The notes under the pieces: model-generated | The model's input: only the letters and a program-made list of their open reading frames with translations | What the model was told of the DNA's origin: nothing | Databases searched by the model: none | Shown here: piece by piece, positions 87-3,287 of the stretch | How the letters are laid out: each line of letters begins with the position of its first letter | Position numbering within the stretch: the stretch's first letter is position 1 | Source of the DNA: Candidatus Latescibacterota bacterium | GTDB lineage: Bacteria; Krumholzibacteriota; Krumholzibacteriia; WVZY01 | Assembly (NCBI GenBank): GCA_011772205.1 | Contig: WVZY01000018.1 | Location: 1 to 56,976 of the forward strand | DNA: 56,976 nucleotides | Reading direction: 5' to 3' | Translations under genes and position numbers: made by a program

Positions 87-554
87 TTATTTTTTCGCTT
101 CGAAATACGAGTCGTTGAATGTATCCGTAAGAGCTTTTAGCTTAGCGACGTTGTCGAGGTCAATGGACTGTTTTGTTTTCATGGCATAGACGAGCATTTC
201 GTGCAGCAGTGAGAGATGCTTCAAATATTTCTTGTGTTTTGCTGCATCTTGCTCGTCAGTGGGTTTCACACGTTGTGTCAAGAAGTACTGCGCAACGATG
301 TGCTGAATCTCATTGGCATGCGTTTCTTTGTTATCGATCCAGCGCACGAGCTGGTTATAGTTGACGGATTGCCCTTGGGATAATTCTGCGATCATTTTCA
401 TTGATTTCTCAATTGTGCTGATGTGCTCTTTGATCATTTCGATGCGCATTTTATCACCATATATTCCACAGGGAATCTCGCAGTGGGCAATTGCCTTTTT
501 GAAAGGGGCGGCGAACAACAACACAACGAACACGTACAAGAGAATCTTTTTCAT
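87..554 (-). CDS. sodN: Nickel superoxide dismutase with an N-terminal signal peptide
   Basis: The 155-aa product should dismutate superoxide to O2 and H2O2 at a nickel centre. Residues 1-23 form a Sec-type signal peptide (two Lys, a hydrophobic core, then AIA). Cleavage after A23 would give a mature N-terminus HCEIPCGIYGD, which matches the family's nickel hook (HCxxPCGxY). His24, Cys25 and Cys29 would become His1, Cys2 and Cys6. The rest is helical and family-like, about 132 residues against ~117 in Streptomyces. In the family the hook is normally exposed by the SodX peptidase; no sodX is seen here, so I infer that signal peptidase does the job and that the enzyme acts outside the cytoplasm. 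A strong AAAGGAGG lies 7 nt upstream of the ATG. The gene is monocistronic and faces out of the window. I see no clear operator. Confidence 0.93.
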   Translation of the reverse strand: MKKILLYVFVVLLFAAPFKKAIAHCEIPCGIYGDKMRIEMIKEHISTIEKSMKMIAELSQGQSVNYNQLVRWIDNKETHANEIQHIVAQYFLTQRVKPTDEQDAAKHKKYLKHLSLLHEMLVYAMKTKQSIDLDNVAKLKALTDTFNDSYFEAKK

Positions 555-769
555 CTCGAAGCCTCCTTTGATAATCCATTGGTCCGTGAATGTGTTTTCT
601 CGAGACGGTCGATTTTTTCTGTTACATGCCGGTTTTGCAGATGCATCAAATGCTAACCAATACAGTGGTCGGCACTCTGTAACTTCTAAGGAAGATAACG
701 GCTCCGGCGATGTAACGCAAAGGGGGATTCATTCCCTGACGGCAGCGCAAGTGATTAAATAACAAGATG

Positions 770-2485: not shown

Positions 2486-3172
2486 TCATCGAATGATTTC
2501 CGTCAGGATCTCGTCGATGTCTTTGAAAACCTCTTCGATTGATTGATCTCCATTCACTCGAATCAACACGCCTTTTTTTTCGTAATATTCGATGAGAGGA
2601 GTCGTCATTTCATGATAGACCTTGATGCGGTTTTGGATGGTTTCTTTTGTGTCGTCTGCACGCTTTCGAGCGAGCAGTCTTTCCATCAGCACTTCATCCG
2701 GAACGTTGAGATCGACCACTCTTATTTGAGCATTTCCCCGTTTCGAGAGAATCGGTTCGAGTCCTTCAGCCTGGCGAATCGTGCGAGGAAAACCATCCAA
2801 GATGAAGCCGTCTTTGCAATCCGGTTCGCTTAGCCGCTTTTCGATCAGGTCCAGAACGATCTCGTCGGCCACGAGCTCACCGCGTTCCATAACGTCCTTG
2901 ACCTTATTCCCCAGTTCCGTTTCTTCAGCGACCTCGGCCCGGAGGATCGCCCCGGTGGAGATATGCGCGATAGCGTATTTTTCTTTGATTTTCTTTGCCT
3001 GCGTGCCCTTGCCCGCGCCCGGGGGGCCTATAATAATTAGCTGCAGAGGAATCTTTTCCTGTTTCTGTCCCGATTCGTAGCTCTTTGCCGACTCGGTGCC
3101 CTCTTCGCCACCGCAGAAAACAGCTTGAAGCGCAAATAGCATGATAAGGAATAAAATGTAAAATTTTCTCAC
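2486..3172 (-). CDS. adk: Adenylate kinase with N-terminal signal peptide (exported or membrane-anchored)
   Basis: The core is a normal adenylate kinase: P-loop IIIGPPGAGKGTQ (residues ~46-58), the AMP-site segment ISTGAILRAEV, the LDGFPRTIRQAEGLE block, and a short LID (RKRADDTKETIQNR) without the zinc-binding cysteines. It interconverts ATP, AMP and ADP. The start is decided by the ribosome-binding site: GAGGAGG lies 6 nt upstream of a GTG at 3172-3170, giving 228 aa; a longer in-frame reading lacks such a site. That start exposes MRKFYILFLIMLFALQAVFC followed by GGEEGTESAKS, i.e. a hydrophobic signal with a possible lipobox Cys at 20 (AVFC, with an unusual Phe before Cys). After it comes a ~20-residue polar linker to the kinase. 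Housekeeping Adk has no such leader, so an extracytoplasmic or anchored enzyme is inferred. The neighbouring genes are LOG-family and MDR. Confidence 0.88.
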   Translation of the reverse strand: MRKFYILFLIMLFALQAVFCGGEEGTESAKSYESGQKQEKIPLQLIIIGPPGAGKGTQAKKIKEKYAIAHISTGAILRAEVAEETELGNKVKDVMERGELVADEIVLDLIEKRLSEPDCKDGFILDGFPRTIRQAEGLEPILSKRGNAQIRVVDLNVPDEVLMERLLARKRADDTKETIQNRIKVYHEMTTPLIEYYEKKGVLIRVNGDQSIEEVFKDIDEILTEIIR

Positions 3173-3287
3173 GATAGACCTCCTCGATAGCCGTTCGTAA
3201 AACGCCGCTCCCATATGCTTATTCGAAAACAAAAGAATTACGAAGCGCTTTCTGTATTCATTCTTAAAGCATCAAAGTAAACAGGAC

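Follow-up and report, generated by a model that had tools for sequence, protein, structure and literature searches.

A candidate exported nickel superoxide dismutase with a signal peptide running directly into the nickel-binding histidine

Locus and gene structure

The window, i.e., the whole stretch of DNA analyzed here (56,976 nucleotides of Candidatus Latescibacterota bacterium, contig WVZY01000018.1), is a complete contig. The gene of interest encodes a nickel superoxide dismutase (Ni-SOD) homolog and ends 86 nt from the contig edge, so that only its upstream side is visible. The following features, all on the reverse strand, are found at the locus:

562..569 (-): Shine-Dalgarno sequence AAAGGAGG, read from the sequence; strong, 7 nt 5' of the ATG
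87..554 (-): Ni-SOD ORF, 155 aa (23-aa leader and 132-aa mature part)
486..554 (-): Sec signal peptide MKKILLYVFVVLLFAAPFKKAIA, with a basic N-region, a hydrophobic core and AIA at positions -3 to -1
465..485 (-): nickel hook HCEIPCG, the predicted mature N-terminus
87..485 (-): mature Ni-SOD domain, a predicted four-helix bundle of 132 aa plus stop (Pfam, AlphaFold2, Foldseek and profile-profile comparison)

The translated precursor reads MKKILLYVFVVLLFAAPFKKAIA followed without a gap by HCEIPCG, with AIA as residues 21-23 and the histidine as residue 24, exactly as stated in the original prediction of a Sec signal peptide ending immediately before the hook. Elsewhere in the window, reading the adenylate kinase ORF (2486-3232, reverse strand) from its TTG adds ∼60 residues to the N-terminus, among them a hydrophobic stretch; the true start is probably later.

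Identity of the protein and its relatives

The protein matches the Pfam family Sod_Ni (PF09055) with 108 bits (cut-off 25) over positions 2-127 of the 127-position profile. The hook HCxxPCGxY is present as HCEIPCGIY, and its residues H1, C2, P5, C6 and G7 are invariant across 66 relatives. An AlphaFold2 model of the mature part, built from 66 relatives (pLDDT 91, pTM 0.84), has four helices and an unstructured hook, and Foldseek ranks NiSODs as its top matches in the PDB (probability 1.00, TM ∼0.8 by target length, E 0.018, identity ∼18%). Moreover, profile-profile comparison yielded a match to leaderless SodN with E 3.9e-15 over residues 1-132. The structural and profile matches and the invariant hook residues show that both the fold and the hook are those of Ni-SOD. 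The score against the SodN equivalog family TIGR02753 is 39.9 bits, below the NCBI cut-off of 90, which makes the protein a divergent relative of SodN. By its sequence and predicted structure, it is a full-length Ni-SOD homolog and a putative enzyme. A single-sequence PDB search also returned myoglobins, but these matches were weak and were taken as chance; no significant match was found in BFVD.

A scan at one genome per species yielded at least 541 relatives. The best 80 of these come from Calditrichota, Bacteroidota, Aminicenantes, Omnitrophota, Planctomycetota, Desulfobacterales, Zixibacteria, WOR-3, KSB1 and other groups. In a non-redundant set of 138 sequences, position 3 of the hook is Glu or Gln in 122 (the exported type, to which the window's protein belongs) and Asp in 16 (the leaderless type). 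A census of 296 Bacteroidota genomes found Ni-SOD in one. Plasmid collections contained one exported-type match, on Ilyobacter pILYOP01, and phage collections none. In that plasmid (Ilyobacter polytropus, a Fusobacterium; L107, 3407-4402), the exported-type gene lies just after a gene for a protein with a cyclic-nucleotide-binding domain. We found no conserved partner gene: when 535 ORFs from the relatives' loci were clustered, no family other than Ni-SOD occurred near more than five loci, and thus the gene appears to stand alone.

Superoxide dismutases of the order

Disposal of superoxide in the cell envelope is usually the task of Cu/Zn-SOD (SodC). Among the seven genomes of the window's order (G000-G006), five encode the exported Ni-SOD, and the other two (G002 and G006) encode exported Cu/Zn-SODs that carry either a lipobox or a signal peptide (L173 and L174). 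None of the seven has both or neither (p 0.048). All seven carry Fe/Mn-SOD, which is leaderless in the window's genome. This alternation suggests that the exported Ni-SOD is probably the envelope SOD of the order, and its role as a replacement of SodC is plausible. In a census of 294 Planctomycetota genomes, SodC was found in 3 of 35 genomes with the exported type, compared to 52 of the 259 others (p 0.11, a weak trend) and 5 of 11 genomes with only the leaderless type (p 0.013).

The protein could be exported and cut as proposed, and yet act in the envelope by binding nickel or scavenging metal, retaining the hook without being a working SOD. The low identity to solved Ni-SODs (∼18%) and the replacement of Asp3 by Glu or Gln would be compatible with such a role, and secreted proteins with an N-terminal histidine behind the signal peptide can carry metals, according to a recent paper (PMC12537917). 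On the other hand, the entire fold and hook are retained, position 9 of the hook is Tyr in 115 of the 122 exported-type relatives (Phe in 7), and the gene alternates with exported Cu/Zn-SOD in the order. We consider a role as a mere metal carrier unlikely.

The leader and the predicted cut site

The leader has the features of a substrate of Sec and signal peptidase I, that is, a basic N-region, a hydrophobic core, and small residues at -3 and -1. Its core hydropathy is 3.38, compared to at most 1.36 among leaderless SodN. Using a von Heijne-type weight matrix, whose counts and scores are approximate, we obtained 7.9 for the site AIA/HC and 6.5 for the runner-up, LFA/AP. The predicted cut before His24 is therefore the top-scoring one, in line with the original proposal.

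The same layout, with the leader running straight into His1, recurs in 114 of the 122 HC[E/Q] relatives; of the remaining eight, seven have a spacer, and the start of the eighth (L157) is unclear. In the 114 direct-layout sequences, the residue at -1 is Ala, Ser, Gly or Thr in 110 and Pro in four, while these small residues occupy 27% of leader positions. The -3/-1 rule is satisfied by 109 of the 114, and the best cut falls at His1 in 79 by the same approximate matrix. By these counts, the small residue before His1 is more frequent than expected by chance, and its placement exactly at -1 is explained only by a cut at that place. The exported Ni-SOD, as judged from the leaders, is a whole branch of the family present in many phyla and no peculiarity of one gene or genome; hundreds of species seem to share the design.

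Still, the one-cut model does not appear to fit every relative, given Pro at -1 in 4 of 114 and a spacer in 7 of 122. Signal peptidase I normally rejects Pro at -1. The four relatives with Pro are L017, L039, L048 and L079, to which trimming after a cut elsewhere may apply. The spacer type comprises L033, L041, L056 and L092 from Bacteroidota (positions L033:735, L041:4001, L056:4025 and L092:4001) and L156, L160 and L161 from Planctomycetota. Here, ∼10-30 residues separate the signal peptide from HC[EQ]VPCG, no signal-peptidase-like residue precedes the histidine, and release of His1 would need a second protease. Such trimming might also operate in the window's protein: signal peptidase would cut elsewhere, and an aminopeptidase or a second protease would then trim the product to the histidine. 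LFA/AP is a second plausible site, and a single cut does not suffice for those relatives in which Pro is at -1 or a spacer is present. However, His24 is the best-scoring site here and the small -1 residue is present in 110 of 114 direct relatives, making this route even less likely than a metal carrier. Finally, it is highly improbable that the leader is retained, whether as a membrane anchor or in a lipoprotein or Tat substrate, as might be read from the strong hydrophobic core and the Cys at +2 of the site, since an uncleaved leader would leave no free His1 and would not account for the conservation of small residues at -3 and -1, the residue preceding Cys25 is His and not Gly, Ala or Ser as in a lipobox, and the leader contains no twin-arginine motif, with RR near the start in just 4 of 122 relatives.

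All 16 Asp3 sequences have a leader of 9-20 aa that lacks a strong hydrophobic core and ends in A-x-A or V-x-A. The number of cysteines is mostly 2-3 in the exported type versus mostly 3-5 in the Asp3 type. Fewer cysteines could suit an oxidizing compartment; alternatively, this could be a lineage effect.

Search for sodX

No sodX is present near the gene, as noted originally, and the search of the whole genome with the SodX model TIGR02754 detected none above the cut-off either. The only matches at E ≤ 10 scored 21.9 and 11.3 bits (cut-off 63.25). Both fall within LepB, the sole S26 match, which is a 205-aa housekeeping signal peptidase encoded between lepA and a hemW-like gene. sodX was also absent at this cut-off from all 80 genomes of the window's phylum (the window's own and 79 others) and from all 50 genomes holding close exported-type relatives. 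Weak TIGR02754 matches in exported-type genomes reached about half of the cut-off or less, were mostly partial, and were rejected as hidden sodX genes; in particular, the match in L104 belongs to a signal-peptidase-like protein whose contig is not the one with sodN, and inspection of L101 revealed no clear sodX-like ORF. The window's gene also departs from the SodN/SodX type in having no adjacent sodX and a 23-aa hydrophobic leader instead of a short hydrophilic pro-sequence. The absence of sodX from the window's own genome, the 79 other genomes of the phylum and the 50 genomes of relatives, together with the predicted cut before His24, supports the proposed maturation without SodX.

Planctomycetota provide a contrast. 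Fourteen of the 294 genomes encode the leaderless Asp3 type, and in 13 of these a sodX match lies 63-422 nt from the Ni-SOD gene, nine of the matches being over the cut-off; the fourteenth gene is at a contig end. Nine Planctomycetota genomes have sodX over the cut-off, and every one of them has a leaderless Ni-SOD, which indicates that the sodX search works. By contrast, no sodX scoring above the cut-off occurs in any of the 32 genomes in which the exported type is the sole one; G135 and G164 are counted among the 32 by score, as the hook is unreadable in both. The association between the leader type and sodX is significant (Fisher p ∼1e-10, or 2e-6 with over-cut-off sodX alone) when genomes are treated as independent. 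Three Planctomycetota, G228, G296 and G318, carry both a leaderless Ni-SOD with an adjacent sodX and a separate exported Ni-SOD, and would be good organisms for a two-compartment comparison.

In a phylogenetic tree (unrooted, with long branches), one branch, with a support of 100, separates the exported from the leaderless type. The spacer type arises twice inside the exported branch.

Discussion

Sec export requires an unfolded chain, and the Ni-SOD hook depends on His1 having a free N-terminal amine. A Sec leader with neither a lipobox nor a twin-arginine motif implies that the membrane would be crossed in the unfolded state. Combined with the need for a free His1 amine, this implies the order of export, cut and nickel binding, the latter outside the cytoplasm. 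We put the probability at roughly 80% that the gene encodes an exported Ni-SOD which needs no SodX, being exported by Sec, cut by LepB and loaded with nickel in the envelope, with a putative role in superoxide disposal. The Sec machinery would carry the unfolded precursor over the inner membrane, and signal peptidase I (LepB) would cleave after AIA to free His1 of HCEIPCG. Nickel would then be bound outside the cytoplasm by His1, the Cys2 amide and the Cys2 and Cys6 thiolates, following which the four-helix bundle would assemble as Ni-SOD. The enzyme would remove superoxide in the envelope, with the cytoplasm served by the leaderless Fe/Mn-SOD. Against this reading, the hook thiols could be open to oxidation in the envelope.

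Ni-SOD is usually described as cytoplasmic and tied to SodX. The canonical system, SodN with SodX (e.g., in Streptomyces; PDB 1q0d, 1t6u), shares with the window's protein the hook HCxxPCGxY, the four-helix fold, A-x-A before His1 and the need for a cut. It differs in its short hydrophilic leader, the cutter SodX encoded next door, Asp3 and the cytoplasmic location described for it, whereas the window's protein has a Sec leader, no sodX, Glu3 and ∼18% identity. SodX and LepB are both S26 proteases, and the A-x-A/H boundary common to both branches suggests that they may make the same cut on opposite sides of the membrane. Periplasmic Cu/Zn-SOD is likewise an exported envelope SOD, although its fold and metal are unrelated to those of Ni-SOD. 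In LPMO, CopC and DUF4198 proteins, the signal peptidase cut also creates a metal ligand His1, but the folds and other ligands are different and the function is mostly linked to copper or metal capture (PMC12537917).

The closest described protein is a planctomycete Ni-SOD (Roseiconus lacunae WP_230780104.1), likened here by its description, in which a Sec signal peptide ends right before the Sod_Ni histidine (PMC12537917). The 2025 paper searched with this signal peptide plus the histidine as bait, and numerous Ni-SODs were recovered; in its available text, the protein serves as bait, with no discussion of maturation, activity or lack of SodX (PMC12537917). Because of this use, we regard the novelty of our observation as moderate. 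Our literature search found no account of the exported branch as SodX-independent; the 2008 survey by Dupont et al. and a 2014 SOD review were outside the search and may mention signal peptides. Processing of Ni-SOD has been ascribed to a cognate peptidase (PMC3919588), the cyanobacterial enzyme has been described as cytoplasmic (PMC8346466), and strains without sodX have been suggested to be possibly unable to use Ni-SOD (PMC8346466). The exported branch is another way for genomes with Ni-SOD to be without sodX.

More generally, we lean slightly towards a picture in which an exported, SodX-independent Ni-SOD branch spans many phyla and the secretion cut doubles as activation. The enzyme would load its nickel outside the cytoplasm and stand in for SodC in the envelope; the same A-x-A/H cut would be made in two compartments by two S26 proteases, SodX and LepB, and the spacer subset would mature via a third protease. 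If the exported branch is active, nickel-based superoxide defense would operate also in the cell envelope, in phyla where it is rarely considered, and the enzyme would mature within the standard secretion system. The missing sodX in many genomes with Ni-SOD would then be expected rather than puzzling, and one could test how nickel is brought together with free thiols outside the cytoplasm.
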